The notes beneath the pieces are model-generated. The model was not told the DNA's origin. It worked only from the letters and a program-made list of their open reading frames with translations, and made no database searches. Both the position numbers and the translations under genes were made by a program. From contig NZ_JACHDO010000001.1 of the NCBI RefSeq assembly GCF_014201115.1, forward strand, positions 6,758,001 through 6,822,000: 64,000 nucleotides of DNA, written 5' to 3'. Positions 11,551 to 25,183 of the stretch are shown here, piece by piece; position 1 is the stretch's first letter; each line of letters opens with the position of its first letter. Source of the DNA: Nocardiopsis metallicus (GTDB lineage: Bacteria > Actinomycetota > Actinomycetes > Streptosporangiales > Streptosporangiaceae).

Positions 11551-13461
11551 GTGTGCCCAGCATGGGCAGTTGCTTGGAGGTGGAAGTCCTCTAGAGGAAG
11601 CGGCAGTGCTAACTCTGAGCCGGAGGCAACGGCGTCACCGCGAGGTGGGGTCGGGAGGAAGCCCGAGGCGAAACCCTGCACTGAGGAACACGAACCGCAT
11701 ACAAGGCAGTCCGGTCGGGGTGAGCCAGCCATGGATGGCGAAGCCCGTCACTGCCAAGACGGCCGGGGTGTAGATGCGGCAGGCGTAGGGGGAAAGTAGC
11801 TGTTCTTACCTGGGGAGGTCTGTCCGGGTGTCGGTTGTGCTGAGTATGTCGCCGCGCCGACGGCCGCGACCGCAAGGGAGCGGCTGACCGGGCAGAAGTC
11901 AGCAGAGGTCGTAGTACCAGCCGGGATCGCTCGTGGGCTGGGAAGGGCCGAACGTCAAATGGGACAGAGGAACCGGTGCCGCTCGTGCTGGTCACACAGA
12001 TCGCAGCCACCCCGCCGAAGGCGGGCCTGCGGTGGGAGGGGACGGTGCATTTCCGTTGAGTACCGCCGTAGAGCGTAGTGACCTGTCGGCGCGGCCTGGA
12101 GACGATGTCCACCACGGCCAGGGGGATCTGTGGCAGCGAATGCTGTCCAGCGCGAACCTGGCCGCGGCGCTCGAACGGGTCGAGACCAACCGGGGTGCCC
12201 CGGGTGTGGATGGAGTCACTACCGCTGATCTGCGGGGATGGCTGCGCGAGCACTGGGAGGGCGTTCGGGAAGAACTCGACGCGGGGAGATACCGGCCCTC
12301 GCCGGTCCGCCGGGTGATGATCCCCAAGCCCGGGGGCGGCGAGCGGATGCTGGGTGTTCCCACGGTGCTGGACCGTTTGATCCAGCAGGCCATCGCGCAG
12401 GTCCTCACCCCGATCTTCGACCCGGAGTTCTCCGGGTCTTCGTTCGGGTTCCGTCCCGGCCGGTCCGCCCATCAGGCGGTGCGGGTCGCGCGGCGGGCTA
12501 TTGAGGACGGCCACCGATGGGTCGTGGACATCGACCTGGACCGGTTCTTCGACCGGGTCCAGCACGATGTGTTGATGGCCCGGGTGGCGCGCAGGGTTGA
12601 CGACCGCAGGGTGCTGCGACTGATCCGGTCCTTTCTGGAAGCCGGGATCATGGCGGACGGGGTCAAGATGCCGAGCGCGCAGGGGACCCCGCAGGGGTCT
12701 CCGCTTTCGCCGGTCCTGTCCAACATCATGCTCGACGACCTGGATCGGGAGCTGTGGCGTCGCGGTCACCGGTTCGTGCGCTACGCCGATGACATCCGTG
12801 TCTTCACGCGTAGCAGGCGGGCCGCTCACAGGGTGCTCGACTCGATCACGGTCGTGGTCGAGCAGCGGTTGAAGCTGAAGGTGAACCGGGAGAAGTCGAA
12901 GGTGGTTCCGGCATCCGTCGCGACGTTGCTGGGGTTCGGTTTCTACTTCACCCGGGCCGGGGTGCGTATCCGGGTCGATCCCAAGGCGCTCAGGCGCTGG
13001 AAGGTGCGGATCCGGGAGCTGACCTCGCGCCGGTGGTCGGTTGCGATGGAGTATCGCATCGGCCGGTTGAACCGGTTCATCGTCGGGTGGATGGGTTACT
13101 TCCGGCTCGCGGACACCCCCAGGGTGTTCCAGGGGTTGGATGAATGGCTCCGCCGCAGGATGCGGCAGGTCCGTTGGAAGGAATGGAAGCGGGCCAGGAC
13201 CCGCCGCCGGATGTTGCGCTCGCTCGGTATCTCGGATCGTGTGGCCCGGGACTGGGCGATCAGCAGCAAGGGGTACTGGCGGATCGGTGGCTCGGTCGTC
13301 CTTCAGCAGGCGCTGCCCAACTCCTACTGGGAGGGCTTTGGTCTGCGGATGCTCAAGCCGACCTGGCAGCGGTTGAGATCAGTTTGACGAACCGCCGGAT
13401 GCGGGCCCGCATGTCCGGTGGTGTGGGGGGAGGGCCGGGCGACCCGGCCCTCCTACCCGAT
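11551..13461 (+). mobile_element. Group II intron with internal reverse transcriptase/maturase
   Basis: The 5' boundary is GTGTGCCCAGCATGGGCA at 11551, a close match to group II intron starts. Typical domain I segments follow ('GGAAGTCCTCTAGAGGAAGC', 'GGCAGTGCTAAC'). After the reverse transcriptase gene, domain V is visible as a hairpin at 13391-13422 with its GCCGGATGC...GCATGTCCGG core. Domain VI follows (a long GC stem from about 13426), ending CCTACCCGAT at 13461 with a candidate branch-point A seven bases from the end. Total about 1.9 kb. Insertion just after a terminator hairpin suggests the class C-like targeting mode, though I do not fix the class. Both ribozyme ends look intact, so it may still splice and move. 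Confidence 0.88.
11933..13387 (+). CDS. ltrA: Group II intron reverse transcriptase/maturase, no HNH domain
   Basis: Up to 484 residues. The frame opens at 11933, but the conserved part begins near ATG 12140 ('MLSSANLAAALERVETNRGAPGVDG'-like RT0/RT1 start), so the first ~69 residues may be intron RNA rather than protein. RT motifs follow: 'RRVMIPKPGGGERMLGVPTV', 'FGFRPGRSAHQAV', 'VDIDLDRFFDRVQHD', 'GTPQGSPLSPVLSNIMLDDLD', and the catalytic 'RYADDIRVF'. Then come the maturase (X) region and a short DNA-binding end ('SSKGYWRIGGS'). No HNH endonuclease follows, so second-strand priming probably relies on host replication. It supports splicing and retrohoming of the surrounding intron. Confidence 0.93.
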   Translation: MGWEGPNVKWDRGTGAARAGHTDRSHPAEGGPAVGGDGAFPLSTAVERSDLSARPGDDVHHGQGDLWQRMLSSANLAAALERVETNRGAPGVDGVTTADLRGWLREHWEGVREELDAGRYRPSPVRRVMIPKPGGGERMLGVPTVLDRLIQQAIAQVLTPIFDPEFSGSSFGFRPGRSAHQAVRVARRAIEDGHRWVVDIDLDRFFDRVQHDVLMARVARRVDDRRVLRLIRSFLEAGIMADGVKMPSAQGTPQGSPLSPVLSNIMLDDLDRELWRRGHRFVRYADDIRVFTRSRRAAHRVLDSITVVVEQRLKLKVNREKSKVVPASVATLLGFGFYFTRAGVRIRVDPKALRRWKVRIRELTSRRWSVAMEYRIGRLNRFIVGWMGYFRLADTPRVFQGLDEWLRRRMRQVRWKEWKRARTRRRMLRSLGISDRVARDWAISSKGYWRIGGSVVLQQALPNSYWEGFGLRMLKPTWQRLRSV

Positions 13462-15030: not shown

Positions 15031-15579
15031 ATGCAGCGCACACCCTTGACCCGAACCCTCCTGGTCGGGGCGGCCCTGACGCTGGCGGTCTCGGCCTGCG
15101 GTCAGGCGGAGGAGCCCGGTGAGGACGGCAGCGAGTACGGCGGAGGCGGCCAGGAGACGGCCGCCCCGGACGCGGAGCACACCCCGGGGGAGGACGGCAG
15201 CGAGTACGGCGGGGGCAACGCCGGTGACGTCCACGTCCTCAACCTGTACGGCGACGAGGAGGGGTTCGACGACCAGCGCCCGACGGACTACGTCGCCACC
15301 GAGTTCACCACCTTCTCCGACATGGAGTGGGACGAGTGGGGCGAGAACCGCGCCCGGGGCGAGGGCGAGGTCCTGGGCACCTGGTGCATGGACGTGGGCT
15401 GCCAGGACGACCCCTATGACGTGGAGATCGAACTCGGGGACCCGGTGGAGGTGGACGGCGTCCGGTACTTCTCCACGTACACGGTCACCGAGTACGACGA
15501 CGACATGGCCGGGGAACAGCGGGAGGCCCTGGAGCAGGCCGACGACGGTCAGCTCAACGTGCCCGTGTCCGCGGAGTAG
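15031..15579 (+). CDS. Secreted lipoprotein with duplicated acidic/glycine motif
   Basis: 182 residues. The signal peptide has lipobox 'VSAC' (Cys about 22), predicting a lipid-anchored surface protein. Residues 25-65 are acidic and flexible and contain 'PGEDGSEYGGG' twice. The rest looks folded, rich in Asp, Glu and aromatic residues, with two cysteines ('TWCMDVGCQD') likely forming a disulfide, and ends 'DDGQLNVPVSAE'. GAGGAGG precedes ATG 15031. No family recognised. It sits between the small secreted cluster and the SMC operon and may belong to neither. Confidence 0.82.
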   Translation: MQRTPLTRTLLVGAALTLAVSACGQAEEPGEDGSEYGGGGQETAAPDAEHTPGEDGSEYGGGNAGDVHVLNLYGDEEGFDDQRPTDYVATEFTTFSDMEWDEWGENRARGEGEVLGTWCMDVGCQDDPYDVEIELGDPVEVDGVRYFSTYTVTEYDDDMAGEQREALEQADDGQLNVPVSAE

Positions 15580-15760: not shown

Positions 15761-15778
15761 CTAGTCTGCTGAGTTGTG
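15761..15778 (+). promoter_or_regulatory. Candidate -10 for leaderless SMC operon transcript
   Basis: TAGTCT at 15761-15766 ends ten bases before GTG 15776, and no Shine-Dalgarno sequence stands at normal distance from that GTG. This fits a leaderless mRNA beginning at or just before the start codon. No convincing -35 is seen. Confidence 0.4.
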
Positions 15779-16861
15779 GGACTCAACCAGCGGGCGGACG
15801 ACAGCGCGGACGACGGACAGGGCACCGGCGAGCGGCCGGTGCCAAGGCACGGCCGCGCCGCTCTGCTGCGCCTGGCCGCCTGGTTCGAGGAAGCCGAACC
15901 GGACCGGGCCGACGCCCTGGCCGGCGCCGCCTTCGCACTCCACCCCGCCCGCCACCTGGAGGGACGGGTCGACGACAGCGTCGCGGCGACCACCAGTTGG
16001 TGGCGGGCCGAGCCCGACCGCAGCACCGTCACCGAACACCCCGGCACCCGTCTTCCCGAACCCGTGCGCGACCACCGCGCCCAGCAGGCCCGTCTGCGCG
16101 ACGCCGCGGAGTCCTCCGCCCACTGGCGCCGCGCCGGCGCGGAGCAGATCCGCTCCCTGCTCACCGAACCCACCGGGGACCGCGCCCGTCTGGACCTGTC
16201 CGGCGCCGGGATGGAGGTTCTCATGGAGCTCCTCACCGCCGCGCTGGGCTCCGGTGACGCCTCCCGCCGCCCCACATCCGCCGGGGACCTGGAGTTCGGT
16301 CTGCGCCTGCACGTCTACGCGGCACCCGGGGCCGAGGTCACGGCCCGCGGTGAGGGCGGGGACCTGACCCTGGAAGGGCTGCGCCTGCGGGTGACCTCCT
16401 ACGAGCAGCACACCGTGGACACCGCGACCCCGGCCGGGCCTTCGGAGATTCCCGACCCCTCGGCGCCCCTGGAGGCCGCCGGGCCCTCGGAGGTTCCGGT
16501 ACCACCGGAGCCCGTGACCGGCCCCGAACCCCTCGCCGGGCCTTCCGCCGAACCCCTCGCCGGGCCTTCCACCGAACCCCCCGCCGCGAACTCCGCGGAG
16601 TCTCCGGACACGCCCCCGGACGACCCGCTGGACGGGCCGCTGGACGGGCCCGGCGGCACCCCCGCGGACGTTCTCACGGACACCCCCTCGGACGAGTCCG
16701 GGCAGGGGCCCGAAGACGGCTCCACCGGTTTCGCCGACTCCGACGCCCCCGCCGCCGAACCCGAACCCACCGGTACCCTCCCCGGATCGGACCCCGACGT
16801 GGAGACCACCGGTCCCATCGACATAGTGACGCACACTCCCTGGACGCGGAGGTGGGGGTAA
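15776..16861 (+). CDS. DUF2397/TIGR02677-like protein, N-terminally short (JetA-like)
   Basis: 361 residues. Residues 25-70 ('ALLRLAAWFEEAEPDRADALAGA', 'FALHPARHLEG') and the following ~140 match what I recall of the C-terminal half of DUF2397 (TIGR02677) proteins, which are normally near 500 residues. In Wadjet/Mks-like systems this protein is the kleisin-like subunit (JetA). The usual N-terminal winged-helix half is absent, and no frame upstream encodes it. From about residue 215 the chain becomes a Pro/Ser/Glu/Asp-rich disordered tail with near-repeats ('PLAGPSAEP', 'PLAGPSTEP'). GTG start, probably leaderless. The stop codon overlaps the next start. Family call by pattern, moderately sure. 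Confidence 0.65.
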   Translation: MGLNQRADDSADDGQGTGERPVPRHGRAALLRLAAWFEEAEPDRADALAGAAFALHPARHLEGRVDDSVAATTSWWRAEPDRSTVTEHPGTRLPEPVRDHRAQQARLRDAAESSAHWRRAGAEQIRSLLTEPTGDRARLDLSGAGMEVLMELLTAALGSGDASRRPTSAGDLEFGLRLHVYAAPGAEVTARGEGGDLTLEGLRLRVTSYEQHTVDTATPAGPSEIPDPSAPLEAAGPSEVPVPPEPVTGPEPLAGPSAEPLAGPSTEPPAANSAESPDTPPDDPLDGPLDGPGGTPADVLTDTPSDESGQGPEDGSTGFADSDAPAAEPEPTGTLPGSDPDVETTGPIDIVTHTPWTRRWG

Positions 16862-18249
16862 TGGAGACGAACGCCCACTTGGAGGACGCCGCCCTCATCG
16901 GTGAGCGGCAGGCCGCCGCGCGCGCCCTCATGTCCCGGCCCCTGCTCGCCCAGCGCACCCACCCGGTCGAGTTCTCCCTCGTGCGCGCACACGCCGAGTG
17001 GCTCGTCCAGCGCTTCCAGCGGGTCCTCGGCTACCGCCTCACGGTGGCCGACGACCACGCCCGCCTGGTCAAACGCGGTCTGGTCGACGAGGTGGTCAGT
17101 CCCACCGGCCGGGCCACCGGAGTCCGTTTCACCCCCCGCACCCACACCTACCTCGCGCTCGCGCTCGCGGTCCTTGTCGAGGGGACCGGCCCCACCACGG
17201 CCCGTACCCTCGCCGCCAAGGTCCGCTCCGCCGCACGTGAGGCCGGGATCGACGCCGACCCCGCGCGCGGCCTCGGTGAACGCCGCGCCTACTGCGCCGC
17301 CCTGTCCCACCTGGTCGGTCTCGGCGTGCTCGCCGAGACCTCCGGAACCGTGCGCGCCCACCAGGCCGACCCCGCCGCCGACGCCTCACTCACCCCGGAC
17401 ACCGAGGCACTGCGCTCGGTCGCCGCGCACCTGCCCAGGGCGGGCGACACCCCGGACTCCTTCCTCGCCGACGCCGCCGACCCGGACCCGGAGAGCGACC
17501 AGGCGGGCGAGGTCGCCCTGCGCCGCCTGCTCGCCGAAACCGCCGTCGTCTACCGCGAACACCTCTCCGACCGCCAACGCGACCGCCTCGCCGCCCACCA
17601 GTGGCGGGCCGCCGCGGCGCTCGGGAACCTGCTCGGCTGCGACACCGAGATCCGCGCCGAGGGTGTGGCGCTCGTCATGCCGGACGAGGCTGCGGCGACC
17701 CCGCGCTTCCCCTCGGACGACCCCGTCGGACACACGGCCCTGGCCCTGGTCCGCCACCTCTCCGGCCGCCTGCACCCCGGTCGCCCCGCCACCTCCGTCC
17801 CTGTTCCCGACCGGGAACTGACTACGGCACTGGAGATCCTGGGCGGATCGGACGCCCCGGTCCGGGCCGACTGGGCGCGCACCGCGGGCCCCGAGATCCC
17901 CGACCCGGAGCGGCTGTCCGCGCTCGTGCTGGAGCTCCTCACCGGTCTGGGCCTGCTCACGGGCGGCCCCGGAGCGTGGGAGCTCACCGCCGCGGCGGCC
18001 AGGTTCGGCGCCGACGCGGACGAGCGCGTCCCCCTGATCCAGGACAATGACGAAGACAGCCGGACACACCCCACACAACCGCGTGGATCCGGTCAGGACG
18101 AAACCGAGGGCGGGGCCGCTCCCCAGGCCGATCCCCGCGGCGACCTCGACCGGGTGGCGTCCGTGCTGCAAGCGGTGGCGAACGAGAAGGTGAGCGCGAC
18201 CAGTGGTGACACAGGAGACGACCGAGGCCCCCGGAACAACTCCGGCTGA
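16861..18249 (+). CDS. DUF2398/TIGR02678 family protein (JetB-like)
   Basis: 462 residues from ATG 16861, which shares its A with the preceding TAA, behind a GGAGGTGGGGG ribosome site. 'ERQAAARALMSRPLLAQRTHPVEFSLVRAHAEWLVQRF' followed by 'LGYRLTVADDHARLVKRG' is the characteristic N-terminus of DUF2398. 'FTPRTHTYLALALAVLVE' and 'RAYCAALSHLVGLGVLAETSG' follow. In SMC-type defence operons of this class it is the KITE-like subunit bridging kleisin and SMC. The final ~60 residues are polar and disordered and overlap the next gene by 47 bp, so the genes are co-translated. Confidence 0.85.
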   Translation: METNAHLEDAALIGERQAAARALMSRPLLAQRTHPVEFSLVRAHAEWLVQRFQRVLGYRLTVADDHARLVKRGLVDEVVSPTGRATGVRFTPRTHTYLALALAVLVEGTGPTTARTLAAKVRSAAREAGIDADPARGLGERRAYCAALSHLVGLGVLAETSGTVRAHQADPAADASLTPDTEALRSVAAHLPRAGDTPDSFLADAADPDPESDQAGEVALRRLLAETAVVYREHLSDRQRDRLAAHQWRAAAALGNLLGCDTEIRAEGVALVMPDEAAATPRFPSDDPVGHTALALVRHLSGRLHPGRPATSVPVPDRELTTALEILGGSDAPVRADWARTAGPEIPDPERLSALVLELLTGLGLLTGGPGAWELTAAAARFGADADERVPLIQDNDEDSRTHPTQPRGSGQDETEGGAAPQADPRGDLDRVASVLQAVANEKVSATSGDTGDDRGPRNNSG

Positions 18250-21200
18250 CCCTGCCGACACCCCCCGTTACCGCCTCGAACGCGCGGGCATCCGGAACGT
18301 CTGGCAGTACGACGACCACGTCCTGGACTTCGCCGAGGGGCGGCTGCTGCTGCGCGGCCGCAACGGCGCGGGCAAGTCCAAGGCGCTGGAGATGCTGCTC
18401 CCCTTCCTGCTGGACGGGGACATGCGACGCCTGGACACCACCGGCACCAACCGCACCAGCCTGCGCTGGCTCATGGCCGACGACCCCCGTGCCGCGCGCC
18501 CCGTCGAGGAGGGCACCGGCCCCGACCTGCTGGGCGGACCCGCCGAACCGGAGCCCGCACCCGAGGCAGGGCAGGGGGCCGGGCAGGACGCGACCGCCGG
18601 GGCCCCTGGCGGCTCCGCTGACTCCGACGGTTCGGCCGACTCCGGTCCCGGCACCCGACTGGGCTACCTGTGGGTCGAGTTCACCACCGCCCGGGGCGAC
18701 CGCGGCCTCGACTCCGCGACCCCGGCCCACCGCACCCCCACCGGCCCCAACACCGCCTCCGCGCTGCTCGCCGCCTCCGCTACCGAGTCCCCGGGAAACA
18801 CGGAGACCCTGGAAGAAGAGCCCGCTCCCGGTGCCCAGCCCCGGCACCTCACCCTCGGTGCGGCCGTCATGGCGGTGGGCGAGGCCGACCCCCGCTGCGT
18901 GTTCTTCGTGACCGACCGCCGCGTCGGCCACGACCTCGAACTGGTCACCGACGGCCGACCCAAACCCGTGGACCGGCTCCGCTCTGAGGTCGGCGCCGAC
19001 AACTGCTTCACCAGCGCCGTCCCCTACCGCGCCCGGGTGATGCGCGACCTGTTCGGCATCGACGACTCCGTCCGCTACCGCAACCTCATCCACCTGCTCT
19101 ACCGCCTGCGCCGCCCCACCATCGGCGACCGCCTGGAGGCGGGCGAGCTGGTCGGCGTCCTGTCCGAGGCCCTCCCGCCGATGGACGAGTCCGTCCTGGA
19201 CGCGGTCGCCCGCAACATCGCCGACCTCGAACAGGCCCGCACCGACAAGAACCAGCTCACCGAGGCCGGCGCCGGGGTCAGCGCCTTCCTCGCCGACTAC
19301 CACGGCTACCTCCTGCACGTCCTGCGCGCCCGCTCCGCCGAGGTCCGCGAACAGCTCGACTCGTGCACCCGCCGCACAGAGGAGACCGACCGCCTGCGCG
19401 CCGAGCTGGACGAGCTCATCACCGCCGAGAGCCAGATCGCCGAGGAGCGCGACCAGGCCCGCCGCACCCGCGACACCGCCGAGGCCGACGACGGCACCCT
19501 CGCCGCCGCCCAGAGCAACGCCGCCACGGCCACCACCAACGAACGCCGTGCCTACGACGCCGCCGTCGGCGCCTACATCCGCGCCGCCGAGGCCGCCTGG
19601 GCCGCCGCCGAACACGCCGCCACCACCGAGACCCACGCGGTGGAGCGCCTGGCCGAGGACACCGCCGCCATCGAGCGCGCCCTCGAAGTCCTGCGCCAGA
19701 CCCACCTGGAGGCCTCCCGCGCCGCCACCGCCGCCGGGCTCGACCCCCAGGCGCTCGGCCAGATCCCCGACGCACGCACCGCCGTGCACGCGCCCCGGGA
19801 GAACACCACCCGGGTCGACCTCCAAGGCCTCGAACAGGCGGTGGAGCGCGCCCCGGTCCACGGCATCGACCTCGCCGACCTGCGCGCACACCTCGGACGC
19901 CTGCACGACCGCCTCACCAGCGCCGCCAACGCAGCGGCCGACCGCACCGACCTCGCCGCCCGGCTCACCGGCCTGACCACCGCCGAGGCCGCCGCCGACC
20001 GCCGCCTGGTCGCCCTGACCAGCGAGGCCGAGAGCGCCGAGGCCACCCTGGAGCACACCCACACCCGCGAACAGGAGGCCATCGCCGCCCTGCGCGCCGA
20101 AAGCGCCGCCTACGCCGACGGCGTCCGTACCTGGGTGGCGGGCCTGCGCGACTCCAGTCACGCCCACGCCCTCGGCGAGGCCATCCACGAGCTGGAGGGC
20201 AGCGTCGAACTGCCCATCACCGAAGCCCTGCGCGTGCTGGACCCGGAGGTCCCGGCCACCGTCGCCCGCCTCGCCCACACCGCCGTCGACCCCCTGCTCG
20301 AAGAACTGCGCGCCCGCCGCGACGTCGCCGTCAACGAGGAGGGCCAGCTCTCCGACGAACTCGCCGACCTGGCCGCCCGCCGCGCCAAGAACCCCGACAG
20401 CGCCCCCGAGCGCCCCGGCTGGGCCACCTACCCTCGCCCGGACGGCGACGGCGTCCCCTTCCACCTGGCGGTGGACTTCGCCGACGGCCTCACCTCCCGC
20501 GAACAGGCCGGGCTGGAAGCGGCCCTGGAGGCCAGCGGCCTGCTCTCCGGCTGGATCCGCGCCGACGGCACCCTCTACGACCCCAACACCCGCGACCTCA
20601 TGGTCACCCCGGCCCGCCCGGCCAAGGGCCGTACCCTCCTCGACGTGCTCGTTCCCGTGGCCATCCCCGACCGCGGCGTGCACAACGACAACCTCCGCGC
20701 CCTGCTCTCCTCCATCGCCCTGCGCTCGGAGGCCCCCGACAGCGCCGAGGACACCGACGCCAAACACCGTCGCGACAGCTCCGTGGCCACCGTCAGCTCC
20801 ATGTCGCTCTCCGGCGGCTGGCGCCTGGGCGTGGCCTCCGGCGCCCACTACAAGAGCGAACCCGAGTACATCGGCGAGGCCGCCCGCAAACGCGCCCGCG
20901 ATCGCCAGTCCGCCAACACCGACCGTCGCATGGCCATCGCCGAGGCGCTCCTGGCCGAGGCCGGGGAACGCCGCTGGGCGGTCGAGCACTCCTACTCCGA
21001 GCTGCTGGAGGTCTCTCGCGACCTCCCCGACCCCGCCCCGCTCATCCGCGCCTGGGCCGTCCTCGACGTCGCCCGGGCCGACGTCGCCGCGGCCCGCCGC
21101 GCGCACGAGACCGCCCAGTCCGCCGCCGAGTCCGCGCGGTCCGAACTCCTCGGCATCCGCACCCGCCTGGCCGACGCCGCCGGGGAGCAGGACCTGCCCA

Positions 21201-22873
21201 CCACCCGAGCCGGACTCGACAGCGCCCTGCGCGCCCTGGACCACCTGCGGGTCCTGATCGCCGCGGCCCTGCGCGACCTCGACGTCCTCGCCTGGGAACT
21301 CGCCGACCACGAACGCCACTCCGCAGCCTGGTCCCGCACCCGCGCCGCCCGGCTCCTGGCCGAGGACGCCCGCGCCGCCGCGATCGACGACATGATCACC
21401 GTGCGCCGCCAGTTCGAGCTCGGCGACCGCGCCCGCGGTGTGGCCTCCGAACAGATCGACGCCGCCCGCGCCCAGGTCCGGGAGCGCGCGGAGGAAGCCG
21501 CCCAACGCCTGCCCGAACTCGAACGCGACGCTCAGCGCGCCCGCGACGAGCGCGTCAGCGCCGAGGCCCGCCTGGAGGTCGCCACCGCCGAACGCGCCGA
21601 ACAGGTCCGCCGCACCCTCGCGGTGGGGCAGACCCTGGTCCAGTCGGTCACCACCGTCGGCGACCCCGACAGCAAGGCCGTCACCGGGACCGAGGACACC
21701 GTCCCCGACGCGGTCCTGCTCCGCGCCGCCGGGCTGCGGGACTGCGCCGCGGACGAGGCGCCGCTGGCCCGCTACCTGGAGGCGGTCAACGGCCGCCCGG
21801 ACGCCGAGACCGGAGCGGCCGAGCCCGCCGGACCGGACGAGCGCCTGGCTCTGCTGGCCTCCTTCGTGGACCAGTTGGAGGAGGGCCTGACCGCGCAGGA
21901 GGACGTCGCCGACGTCGACGACAGCGCCATCCTCGGCAGCCGCGAGGAGCTGCACCGCCTGCTCGGCTCGGCGGGCTGGGCCCAGACCCGCACCGAGCTC
22001 ACCGAGCCGCGCGGGGTCAAGCGCCTCACCGTGCACGACGAGGACGGCTCCCACGACGTCACCGCCTATGCCGAACGCGTCGCCGAGGCCGTCACCCGCG
22101 CCGAGGAGACCGTCGCCATCGCCGAGGAGGAGGCCTTCGAACGCCACCTGCTGGGCGAGCTCGCCGGGCACCTGTCCCGCCAGATCGACGAGGCGCGGGC
22201 CCTCATCGCGACCATGAACGACGTCCTCAAGGACGTCACCACCTCCGCCGGTCTCGGCGTGCGCCTGGACTGGAGCCTGGCGCCCGACGCCGGGGCCGAC
22301 GTCGAGGCGGTCGTGCCGCTGCTGGCCACCCCGGCCGAGGAGCGCACCCGTGTCCAGACCACCCGCCTGCGCGATGCCCTGCGCCGCTGCATCGAGGCCA
22401 TCCGCCGCCTGGACCCGACCGCCACCGGCGGCGCCCAGCTGCGCGCCGCCCTCGACTACCGGTCCTGGTTCACCTTCACCGTCTACGTCACCGACTCGGC
22501 CGGGGACGAGCGCCGCCTGGGCCACCGAACCGCCCTCAGCCAGGGCGAACAGCGCGTGGTCGCCTACCTGGTGCTGTTCGCCGCGGCCGCCGCGCAGTTC
22601 GACGCCCTGGCCCAGCGGGCGCCGTGGGCGCCGCGCCTGATCCTGTTGGACGACGCCTTCGCCAAGGTCGACGAACCCACCCACGGGCGCCTGCTCGGGC
22701 TGCTGGTCGAACTCGACCTGGACTTCGTCCTGACGTCCGAACGCGTCTGGGGCTGCTTCGCGAGCGTGCCGAGCCTGAACATCTACGAGTGCCTGCGCGA
22801 CCCGAACGTCCCGGGGATCGCCACGCTGCACTTCACCTGGGACGGCAGTCGCAGGAGGCTCGTCGGCGTGTGA
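18203..22873 (+). CDS. TIGR02680 family SMC-like ATPase (JetC/MksB-like)
   Basis: 1556 residues. 'YRLERAGIRNVWQYDDHVLDF' and the Walker A 'GRNGAGKSK' (52-60) form the N-terminal head. The head has a Gly/Ala/Pro/Glu-rich insert at about 95-170. Long Ala/Glu/Arg coiled-coil arms fill most of 370-1290, interrupted near 740-900 by a globular part (hinge-like position). The C-terminal head has signature 'LSQGEQRVVAYL' (about 1445), Walker B 'RLILLDDAF' (about 1480) and D-loop 'AKVDEPTH'. Expected to use ATP to load on or extrude DNA with the two upstream proteins. In Wadjet systems such complexes cut circular plasmids through a JetD nuclease, which is not encoded here. GTG 18203 start. Confidence 0.9.
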   Translation: MVTQETTEAPGTTPADPADTPRYRLERAGIRNVWQYDDHVLDFAEGRLLLRGRNGAGKSKALEMLLPFLLDGDMRRLDTTGTNRTSLRWLMADDPRAARPVEEGTGPDLLGGPAEPEPAPEAGQGAGQDATAGAPGGSADSDGSADSGPGTRLGYLWVEFTTARGDRGLDSATPAHRTPTGPNTASALLAASATESPGNTETLEEEPAPGAQPRHLTLGAAVMAVGEADPRCVFFVTDRRVGHDLELVTDGRPKPVDRLRSEVGADNCFTSAVPYRARVMRDLFGIDDSVRYRNLIHLLYRLRRPTIGDRLEAGELVGVLSEALPPMDESVLDAVARNIADLEQARTDKNQLTEAGAGVSAFLADYHGYLLHVLRARSAEVREQLDSCTRRTEETDRLRAELDELITAESQIAEERDQARRTRDTAEADDGTLAAAQSNAATATTNERRAYDAAVGAYIRAAEAAWAAAEHAATTETHAVERLAEDTAAIERALEVLRQTHLEASRAATAAGLDPQALGQIPDARTAVHAPRENTTRVDLQGLEQAVERAPVHGIDLADLRAHLGRLHDRLTSAANAAADRTDLAARLTGLTTAEAAADRRLVALTSEAESAEATLEHTHTREQEAIAALRAESAAYADGVRTWVAGLRDSSHAHALGEAIHELEGSVELPITEALRVLDPEVPATVARLAHTAVDPLLEELRARRDVAVNEEGQLSDELADLAARRAKNPDSAPERPGWATYPRPDGDGVPFHLAVDFADGLTSREQAGLEAALEASGLLSGWIRADGTLYDPNTRDLMVTPARPAKGRTLLDVLVPVAIPDRGVHNDNLRALLSSIALRSEAPDSAEDTDAKHRRDSSVATVSSMSLSGGWRLGVASGAHYKSEPEYIGEAARKRARDRQSANTDRRMAIAEALLAEAGERRWAVEHSYSELLEVSRDLPDPAPLIRAWAVLDVARADVAAARRAHETAQSAAESARSELLGIRTRLADAAGEQDLPTTRAGLDSALRALDHLRVLIAAALRDLDVLAWELADHERHSAAWSRTRAARLLAEDARAAAIDDMITVRRQFELGDRARGVASEQIDAARAQVRERAEEAAQRLPELERDAQRARDERVSAEARLEVATAERAEQVRRTLAVGQTLVQSVTTVGDPDSKAVTGTEDTVPDAVLLRAAGLRDCAADEAPLARYLEAVNGRPDAETGAAEPAGPDERLALLASFVDQLEEGLTAQEDVADVDDSAILGSREELHRLLGSAGWAQTRTELTEPRGVKRLTVHDEDGSHDVTAYAERVAEAVTRAEETVAIAEEEAFERHLLGELAGHLSRQIDEARALIATMNDVLKDVTTSAGLGVRLDWSLAPDAGADVEAVVPLLATPAEERTRVQTTRLRDALRRCIEAIRRLDPTATGGAQLRAALDYRSWFTFTVYVTDSAGDERRLGHRTALSQGEQRVVAYLVLFAAAAAQFDALAQRAPWAPRLILLDDAFAKVDEPTHGRLLGLLVELDLDFVLTSERVWGCFASVPSLNIYECLRDPNVPGIATLHFTWDGSRRRLVGV

Positions 22874-23077
22874 CCGGCGGCGGAGCGGAGGGGCCGCTGG
22901 ATTTCCGAGGGCGGGGCGTCCCGGGCCCGAGTGTCCTGGGTCACCCCCGGGGCAGTGGGAAACCCGCGGTTCCGCCGAGGTGGAACGGGTTTCGGGTGCG
23001 TTCCGGTATCCGCATCACCAGCGCGCTTCCTCCCGTCCTGTCCTACTCTGCTGGTGCAGGTTCGAGAACGGAGCGGG

Positions 23078-25183
23078 GTGGCGAAGGTGACTCGGGGACC
23101 CGAGGCGGACACACGCGCAGGACGGGACGGCCACGAGGGCGCGCCCCAGACCGACGACCCCACCACCAAGGCCCTCCTCGACGCCTTGGCGCGCTCGGGG
23201 CTGCCCGAGGGGGTCCGGATCTGGGTGAGCGCCGCCCTGTGGGGAGAGGAGGCGCTGGAGGCCCTCCTGCGGGGCGAGCACCTCCCCGAGATCCTTCCCT
23301 CGGGGCCGCCGGGACCCCCGCCCGGGCGGGTGCGCCGCGCCTACCTCACCGGCATCCGCGTCCAGGGCTTCCGCGGCATCGGCCGCCCGGCCGACCTCAC
23401 CTTTTCCCCGGGGCCCGGCCTGACCGTCATCGTGGGCCGCAACGGCTCCGGAAAGTCCAGCTTCGCCGAGGCCGCCGAGGCCGCCCTGACCGGTCGCAAC
23501 CCCCGCTGGGACGCCATGCCCACCGGTTGGCGCGACGGCTGGCGCAACCTGCACTACGACGAGCGCACCGAGGCGACCGTGGACATCCACATCGCCGGGG
23601 ACAGCGGGCCCACCCGGATCAGCCGCCGCTGGACCGGCGAGAGCGTCCGCTCGGCCCGCGGCGAGGTGGTGCACCCCGGCGGCGAGGTGTCCCCGCTGCG
23701 CACCCTCGACTGGGGCGAGAACCTCGTCCGCTATCGGCCCTTCCTGTCCTACGACGAACTCGGCCGTACGGTCACCGGCCGCGCCGCCGAGCTCTACGAC
23801 ACGCTCACCGCCCTGCTCGGGCTCACCGGGCTGGCCGAGGCCGAACGCCGGCTGGCCAAGGTCTGCGACGGCCTGGTCCGACGCCGGGACCGCCCCTCCC
23901 GCGAGCTCCGCACCCTCCTGGACGCGCTCAGCGCCTCCGGCGACCCCCGGGCCGTCCAGGCCGTGAACCTGCTCTCCGCGCCGTCCATGGACCTGGAGGC
24001 GCTGCGCCGGGTGGCCGCCGACGACGGCCCCAGCGACCCCGCCCTGCACGTGGTGCTGCGCCGACTGCGCCGCCTGTCCGTCCCCGAGCGCACGCTCATC
24101 GCCGACGTCGTCAACGAGCTGCGCGGCGCAGCCATGGAACTGGCGATGGCGGCCGGGAGCAAGGGCGACCACGCGCACGGGGTGGTCCAGCTCCTGGAAC
24201 AGGCACTGGAGCACCACAAGCGCCACCCCACCGAGACCACCTGCCCCACCTGTTCGGCCACCGGGGCGCTCGGCGCCGACTGGGTGCGCCGGGCCAACGC
24301 GCAGCTGCGAGCGCTGCGGCCCCAGGCCGCCACCGCCTCGGCCGCCTACGAACGCGCCGAGGCCGCGCGCGACCAGGCCCGCTTCCTGCTCTCCCCGGCG
24401 CCGTCCTGGCTGCCGCCGGAGAGCGAGCTGGGCCAGGTGTGGGCGCTCTGGGAGTCCGGCACGACCATCGAGGACCTCGGCGAGCTCGCCGAGCACATCG
24501 AGTCGGTGGGCCGCAAGCTCCGGTCCGCGGCGGTCAGCGCCCGGCGGGACGCCTCCGAACGCCTGGAGGACCCCACCGACGGCTGGGGAGAGCTCGCCGA
24601 CCGCCTCTCCGGGTGGTTGGACGACGCACAGGAGGCCGTGGCCGCCAGCGAGACCCTGGGCGCCGCCGAGGCAGCCCTGAACTGGCTCGCCGAGCACGCG
24701 CGCGGGGTTCGGGCGGAGCGGCTGGGGCCGGTGGCCGCCCAGGCCGAGCAGGTGTGGTTCCGGCTGCGCCAGGAACGGCACATCGACCTCCAGGGCATGC
24801 GGCTGATCGGCCGCGGCGCCCGCCGCAGGGTCGAGGTCGACGTGGCCGTGGACGGCGTGGACGACCAGACCAGCGCCCCCGGTCTGCTCAGCCAGGGCGA
24901 GTTCCAGGCGCTGGCGCTGTCCATCTGCCTGCCGCGCGCGCTGGTGGAGGGGAACCCGTTCGGCTTCCTGCTGCTGGACGACCCGGTCCAGGCGATGGAC
25001 ACCGAGACGGTCGAGGGGCTGGCCGCGGTTCTGGCGGAGGTCGGGCGGCACCGGCAGCTGATCGTGTTCACCCACGACACCCGTCTGTCGGACGCCCTGC
25101 GCCGGCTGGGGCTGCCCGCGGACATCCGCACGATCAACCGTGACGCGATGTCCAACGTCTGGCTGGCCGAAGGGACCTCCTGA
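23078..25183 (+). CDS. Rad50/SbcC-like AAA ATPase with CxxC hook
   Basis: About 701 residues from GTG 23078 (GTG 23087 is equally possible; the open frame from 22931 is longer but not protein-like). Residues 1-75 are a separate small helical region. 'RRAYLTGIRVQGFRGIGRPADLTFSPG' and Walker A 'GRNGSGKSS' (about 120-128) begin the ATPase. A helical middle contains 'TCPTC' (about 388-392), like a zinc hook. The end has signature 'LLSQGEFQALALS' (about 603), Walker B 'FLLLDDPVQAMD' (about 631-642) and H-loop 'IVFTHD'. No Mre11/SbcD-type nuclease gene is adjacent. It follows the SMC operon by about 200 bp on the same strand, with a possible TACTCT -10 at 23044. Probably DNA repair or defence; exact family not identified. 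Confidence 0.8.
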   Translation: MAKVTRGPEADTRAGRDGHEGAPQTDDPTTKALLDALARSGLPEGVRIWVSAALWGEEALEALLRGEHLPEILPSGPPGPPPGRVRRAYLTGIRVQGFRGIGRPADLTFSPGPGLTVIVGRNGSGKSSFAEAAEAALTGRNPRWDAMPTGWRDGWRNLHYDERTEATVDIHIAGDSGPTRISRRWTGESVRSARGEVVHPGGEVSPLRTLDWGENLVRYRPFLSYDELGRTVTGRAAELYDTLTALLGLTGLAEAERRLAKVCDGLVRRRDRPSRELRTLLDALSASGDPRAVQAVNLLSAPSMDLEALRRVAADDGPSDPALHVVLRRLRRLSVPERTLIADVVNELRGAAMELAMAAGSKGDHAHGVVQLLEQALEHHKRHPTETTCPTCSATGALGADWVRRANAQLRALRPQAATASAAYERAEAARDQARFLLSPAPSWLPPESELGQVWALWESGTTIEDLGELAEHIESVGRKLRSAAVSARRDASERLEDPTDGWGELADRLSGWLDDAQEAVAASETLGAAEAALNWLAEHARGVRAERLGPVAAQAEQVWFRLRQERHIDLQGMRLIGRGARRRVEVDVAVDGVDDQTSAPGLLSQGEFQALALSICLPRALVEGNPFGFLLLDDPVQAMDTETVEGLAAVLAEVGRHRQLIVFTHDTRLSDALRRLGLPADIRTINRDAMSNVWLAEGTS

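Follow-up and report, generated by a model that had tools for sequence, protein, structure and literature searches.

Wadjet plasmid-defence systems of type II, represented by JetABCD of Neobacillus vireti (PDB 9qe0/9qe1), are the closest described relatives of an operon present in Nocardiopsis metallicus (contig NZ_JACHDO010000001.1, positions 6,758,001 to 6,822,000 of the forward strand; this stretch of 64,000 nucleotides is termed the window). The N. vireti JetABC complex has the stoichiometry (JetC2 JetB1 JetA1)2 (PMC12647877), and JetABC dimerisation runs through the N-terminus of the kleisin JetA, as described in passages of a review (PMC10586767). In MukBEF, the N-terminal part of the kleisin MukF dimerises and binds the MukB neck and the C-terminal domain binds the head cap; each MukF domain alone gives about half of the maximal ATPase activity, and disturbance of the MukF–MukB contact releases MukBEF from chromosomes (PMC5812716). 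MksBEF of Pseudomonas aeruginosa is presented in passages of the same review as a JetABCD-like complex thought to have lost the nuclease JetD and to serve the chromosome (PMC10586767). The N. metallicus operon consists of a short jetA, jetB, jetC and a gene for a Rad50/SMC-like ATPase. Comparisons across the family suggest that a plasmid-defence weapon has been turned into a housekeeping tool in Nocardiopsaceae: with a probability of roughly 0.6, the operon is a clade-fixed chromosomal derivative of a type II Wadjet system that lost JetD, truncated JetA and became associated with the ATPase, together with which it probably acts on the chromosome. Its features in the window are as follows.

15762..15771, + strand: element TAGTCTGCTG, with a putative -10 region (TAGTCT) that ends 8 nt 5' of the GTG of short jetA in a leaderless-like arrangement
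15776..16861, + strand: short jetA, a kleisin corresponding to the C-terminal part of DUF2397 (profile and PDB 9qe0 matches), with a GTG start
16852..18249, + strand: jetB (DUF2398/TIGR02678), with a likely alternative start ATG at 16861 overlapping the jetA stop
18203..22873, + strand: jetC, the SMC subunit (TIGR02680), with Walker A, signature and Walker B
23044..23053, + strand: element TACTCTGCTG before the ATPase gene, of the same 10-mer class as the element before jetA
23054..25183, + strand: Rad50/SMC-like ATPase, 709 aa from GTG 23054, with an alternative start GTG at 23078
24242..24253, + strand: CPTC motif of the ATPase, at a zinc-hook-like position between coiled-coil segments

The likeness to type II Wadjet lies in JetB, JetC, the C-terminal domain of JetA and the order jetA-jetB-jetC. 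The jetB product matches Pfam DUF2398 over positions 1-361 of 363 (E 9.8e-81), which identifies it as JetB, and scores 79.9 bits with TIGR02678, below the cut-off of 124.65. The jetC product is a JetC-type SMC protein by its score with TIGR02680 (750.9 bits; cut-off 462.85) and matches JetC of PDB 9qe0 (E 2.6e-58); in Walker A, the signature, Walker B and the motif after it, it agrees with the nearest canonical JetCs apart from minor differences, for example Arg/Lys in Walker A. Mks complexes belong to the type I lineage, from which the operon JetC is set apart by 1069 bits with the PADLOC JetC2 model as against at most 31 bits with the JetC1 models. The operon resembles MksBEF as a nuclease-less SMC complex and differs in JetC type; also, the MksBEF passages of PMC10586767 describe neither a half-kleisin nor an extra ATPase, which are both features of the operon. 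From type II Wadjet the operon differs by the absence of JetD, a JetA lacking about 320 N-terminal positions, a neighbouring ATPase and its presence in every sampled genome of the clade. The initial annotation recognised three coupled genes (DUF2397, DUF2398 and TIGR02680), and their order and overlaps are borne out, as the jetA TAA stop overlaps the possible jetB ATG at 16861 and jetB and jetC also overlap; it missed that the first gene encodes only the C-terminal part of its family.

This half-kleisin is the more unusual feature of the locus. Short jetA encodes no more of the type II Wadjet kleisin than its C-terminal ~190 residues: the match covers positions 300-481 of 483 in Pfam DUF2397 and 322-513 of 518 in a custom JetA profile, and includes residues 310-379 and 388-495 of JetA in PDB 9qe0. 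With TIGR02677 the product scores 31.9 bits, under the cut-off of 165.85, and it is not a full-length Wadjet kleisin. Residues ~27-217 of short JetA are conserved and are followed by a low-complexity tail. The JetA match begins at profile positions 315-322 in 59 of the 60 readable operon loci, indicating a common truncation point; the sole exception is Allonocardiopsis, where it begins at position 17 and JetA is full. The missing part is the N-terminal ~320 profile positions.

A JetD profile (E up to 0.01) recovered all 11 JetD loci from which it was built. Neither the window nor any operon locus searched with it (L045-L104, L124, L141-L144 and the operon loci among L173-L196) gave a match, and the operon is unlike Wadjet in this respect. 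The earlier observation that JetD is missing at the locus is thereby upheld and extended. JetD was not found by the profile in the Allonocardiopsis operon either, despite its full JetA. The N. metallicus genome does contain one TIGR02679 protein (JetD, 309.7 bits; C1:816533-817663) with its own JetA, JetB and JetC, and a weak DUF2399 match at a further site. This complete jetABCD cluster is ~5.96 Mb from the operon in contig coordinates. A JetD-type gene elsewhere in the genome, named initially as evidence against effector loss, thus exists, but within a different, complete system. A further JetA-JetB-JetC set without a TIGR02679 match is present at C1:2268000-2286000 (L042); behind it lie a 117-aa ORF and an ORF that looks transposase-like by eye. 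A second kind of JetABC with full-length JetA was seen in Streptomonospora-like and related genera (L134-L140); the JetD profile matched only in L136, the L134 stretch stopping inside jetC and so providing no test, and a superoxide-dismutase-like ORF (by eye) is located downstream in L135, L137 and L139.

The ATPase and JetB searches were run on the same sample of 298 genomes of the family, with counts taken from the hit listings. The same 72 genomes carry orthologues of both proteins, namely all 40 sampled from the genus and 32 from outside it. ATPase orthologues are 58-100% identical over the best stretch; JetB orthologues are 47-100% identical in 70 genomes and 41-42% in two (G060 and G063), which were called orthologous by gene order. 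Among the matches listed for the other 226 genomes, long ATPase matches reach at most 43-44% (two short fragments, 50-52%) and long JetB matches at most 45% (one 97-residue fragment, 47%); JetD is present in all seven JetB loci fetched from these genomes (L125-L130, L133). In 68 of the 72 genomes, JetC/JetB and the ATPase share strand and contig, as established by reading for the window, 60 fetched loci (L045-L104) and L142, and by JetB/ATPase coordinates only for G018, G040, G043, G073, G102 and G124. Where the stretch is long enough, flanking genes are also shared: a small lipoprotein-like gene 5' in most loci, and two MaoC-like genes and MurB 3'. Named contigs with the ATPase at 56-94% identity (best segment) come from Nocardiopsis, Streptomonospora, Thermobifida fusca, Marinactinospora, Murinocardiopsis, Allonocardiopsis and allies; a contig labelled Glycomyces fuscus groups among Nocardiopsis by ATPase identity. 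In a phylum sample, a single JetB query found relatives in 27 of 395 other genomes, at no more than 42% identity.

In a tree of 74 JetC sequences rooted on L042, the 57 operon JetCs are monophyletic (support 1.0), their nearest groups are JetD-bearing systems, and the Allonocardiopsis JetC is sister to the other 56 (support 0.986). Loss of the nuclease therefore looks ancestral to the clade, in agreement with the earlier suggestion that the effector has been lost. In the most economical order, JetD would have been lost and the ATPase would have joined at the base of the clade, and JetA would have been truncated later, after the Allonocardiopsis split. Pairwise JetC and ATPase distances correlate with r = 0.975 over 47 loci (largest permuted value in 999, 0.364); the correlations of JetC or ATPase with MurB or YajQ are 0.84-0.87, and that of MurB with YajQ is 0.79, a pattern which fits common vertical descent. 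Given the shared strand in 68 of 72 genomes and the JetC–ATPase correlation, the ATPase is not a chance neighbour, the outcome that had been named as fatal to the initial view. No stops interrupt the cores aligned from the window and 60 loci, and median dN/dS values (pairs with dS 0.1-0.6) are 0.27 for the JetA core, 0.39 for JetB, 0.39 for JetC and 0.24 for the ATPase, which indicates purifying selection on the jet genes and the ATPase.

The ATPase resembles Rad50/SbcCD in having an ABC head with a CxxC hook, and differs from Rad50/SbcC and from SMC heads by a short coiled coil. All 51 aligned homologues, among them paralogues at 34-40% identity, have the same residues in Walker A, the CxxC (C438, C441), the signature and Walker B, and the CPTC motif falls between helices 411-431 and 449-486 in the predicted model. 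An SMC/Rad50-type gene on the same strand was recognised correctly from the start; its 5' end probably needs revision. The longest ORF has 750 aa and begins at 22931, and translation probably starts at GTG 23054 or GTG 23078, downstream of the promoter-like TACTCTGCTG, so that translational coupling to jetC would not occur. The idea that this ATPase replaces the nuclease finds no support, as the model shows an ABC head and a coiled coil plus a small helical region at the N-terminus, and no nuclease domain was found by Pfam. No Mre11/SbcD-like ORF follows the ATPase as judged by eye in the window, no Mre11 profile having been run on the locus or genome. Matches to NCBIfam are far under family cut-offs; PADLOC defence models for mad3 and LmuB score 79.5 and 56.7 bits. 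The latter score is the likeness to Lamassu, of which no effector was identified at the locus; LmuA is absent from the PADLOC matches shown for the four operon proteins (best 25 of 36 for the ATPase), with no separate LmuA search made.

Paralogues elsewhere, 35-43% identical to the operon ATPase and with the same head motifs, form a two-gene set with a ~130-aa DUF4145/HEPN-like partner in Pseudonocardia, Geodermatophilus, Blastococcus and others (L105-L123, L195, L197-L222). The partner gene follows on the same strand in 45 of 46 loci, and the paralogue frames usually extend ~100-150 residues beyond the match to the operon ATPase. The operon ATPase has neither this extension nor the partner, whose profile matched nothing in the window or in any operon locus searched. 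No PADLOC model matches the partner, and the two-gene set may be an undescribed defence system. As JetD and the small partner are both absent from the operon loci searched, JetABC and the ATPase are two adjoining motors, each without its usual partner.

On these grounds, JetC–JetB with the C-terminal domain of JetA would form an ATP-driven SMC complex capped at the head. Such a complex would lack the kleisin part through which two motors dimerise and the neck is contacted, leaving the neck free, and should thus not work as a dimeric extruder and cutter of plasmids. Its probable mode is that of one motor alone, or of a DNA clamp, which is placed on the chromosome, does not cut DNA and together with the ATPase serves chromosome upkeep or repair. 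A chromosomal use is proposed because the operon appears to be retained vertically throughout the clade and because MksBEF provides a precedent. A bolder and rather doubtful extension of this scheme is a hybrid SMC machine, in which an SMC-KITE motor with a head-cap half-kleisin has no kleisin ring closure or dimerisation and the ATPase replaces the missing half or controls loading, two partnerless defence-type motors having merged into a core chromosome-maintenance complex of Nocardiopsaceae.

Several points weigh against a chromosomal role shared with the ATPase. Both the chromosomal function and a contact of the ATPase with JetABC are hypothetical. A separate 1187-aa SMC frame in the same genome is a further condensin candidate beside the operon. 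MksBEFG of Corynebacterium glutamicum has kept its nuclease and, according to passages of PMC7083940, works on plasmids rather than on chromosome folding. A very divergent nuclease could be missed by the DUF2399 model, and the role of the JetA N-terminus might be supplied by an unrecognised protein. The spread of dN/dS is wide, with 5-95% ranges up to 0.74-0.85 for the jet genes and a spread up to ~1 for JetB. The linkage also has exceptions: the Allonocardiopsis ATPase gene has the orientation opposite to that of jetC and converges on it; in G008, G049 and G159, jetB/jetC and the ATPase are on different contigs; in Nocardiopsis endophytica (G159; L178/L144), no jetC occurs within 9.9 kb upstream of the ATPase; and a 5 kb gap separates jetC and the ATPase in L084, which is counted among the 68. 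Finally, the phylum count understates the frequency of Wadjet, as a single JetB query does not see all Wadjet types. Passages of a survey (PMC10482375) report Wadjet in 42% of actinobacterial genomes, and in 73% of Rhodococcus genomes a Wadjet combined with restriction-modification (RM) and with either of two further systems; as Wadjet can be widespread within a genus, genus-wide retention is no proof of a non-defence role.

This last argument also favours a non-cleaving defence, in which JetABC and the ATPase would bind or compact invading circular DNA and thereby silence or sequester it, in the manner proposed for Smc5/6, which could compact circular viral DNA and stop its expression (review passages in PMC10586767). 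The plasmid-defence relatives of the operon and the mad3 and LmuB matches of the ATPase are in keeping with this mode. It is nevertheless an improbable account, as the operon occurs in every sampled clade member, is nearly always syntenic and appears vertically inherited, and as the JetA part that links the motors in the extrusion model, as described in passages of PMC10586767, is missing.

It is also rather unlikely that the locus encodes a domesticated SMC complex along with an ATPase of independent role, the two being unrelated and joined by synteny alone. Such independence would agree with the seemingly private promoter-like element of the ATPase gene, its inversion in Allonocardiopsis and the different small partner beside its paralogues, but not with the strict co-occurrence in 72 of 72 genomes or with the lack of that partner from the operon loci searched. 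Supply of JetD in trans by the complete jetABCD cluster, compatible with the presence of that cluster and with a DUF2399 match in 38 of the 72 operon-bearing genomes, is very improbable: the other 34 have no such match, so neither this arrangement nor the earlier proposal of an effector encoded elsewhere can be a general rule, and cross-talk is doubtful because the JetC of the cluster matches the operon JetC only in pieces, at 30-37% identity. A decaying Wadjet remnant with a chance neighbour, suggested by the loss of the N-terminal two thirds of JetA and of JetD and by broken frames in L047, L052, L082 and L083 (those of L082 and L083 look like sequencing errors, since MurB or MaoC2 is broken too), is scarcely credible given the same truncation point, the lack of core stops, the purifying selection, the preserved ATP motifs and the same-strand neighbours described above.

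If a chromosomal function is correct, the operon would clearly exemplify how an SMC system for plasmid defence becomes fixed as a chromosomal complex, and Allonocardiopsis, which has full JetA but no JetD, would be a possible living intermediate. It would also be a natural test of what is needed of a kleisin, as the half that dimerises and binds the neck is gone and the ATP motifs are kept. The operon is also present in Thermobifida fusca (L176), a laboratory species in which these ideas can be tested. Annotation of JetABC as Wadjet plasmid defence could then be wrong across a whole family.

The promoter-like pattern TA[GC]TCTGCTG occurs in the window only at 15762 and 23044, and five times in the whole 7.78 Mb genome, these two included; in total, 68 matches were found in 1.135 Mb on both strands. 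Among the 56 operon loci in which jetA could be read, 49 have the element within 300 bp 5' of the jetA core; it was not seen 5' of the full jetA of Allonocardiopsis. For the ATPase core, only 19 of 61 loci have it within 700 bp on the 5' side, and one of these copies (L066) is too distant for a promoter. A third genomic TACTCTGCTG (C1:4094110-4094119, - strand) is directly 5' of a GTG-started ORF of 199 aa, and the element may therefore be a general leaderless -10 form rather than the mark of a private regulon.

A group II intron reverse transcriptase/maturase (window 11933-13387), which had no match in the fetched stretches of relatives, is downstream of tRNA-Tyr. The small lipoprotein-like gene (window 15031-15579), without a match in Pfam or NCBIfam, is directly 5' of jetA in most operon loci. 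On the 3' side of the ATPase, the window contains tRNA-Thr, tRNA-Met and MaoC-like genes (names by eye).

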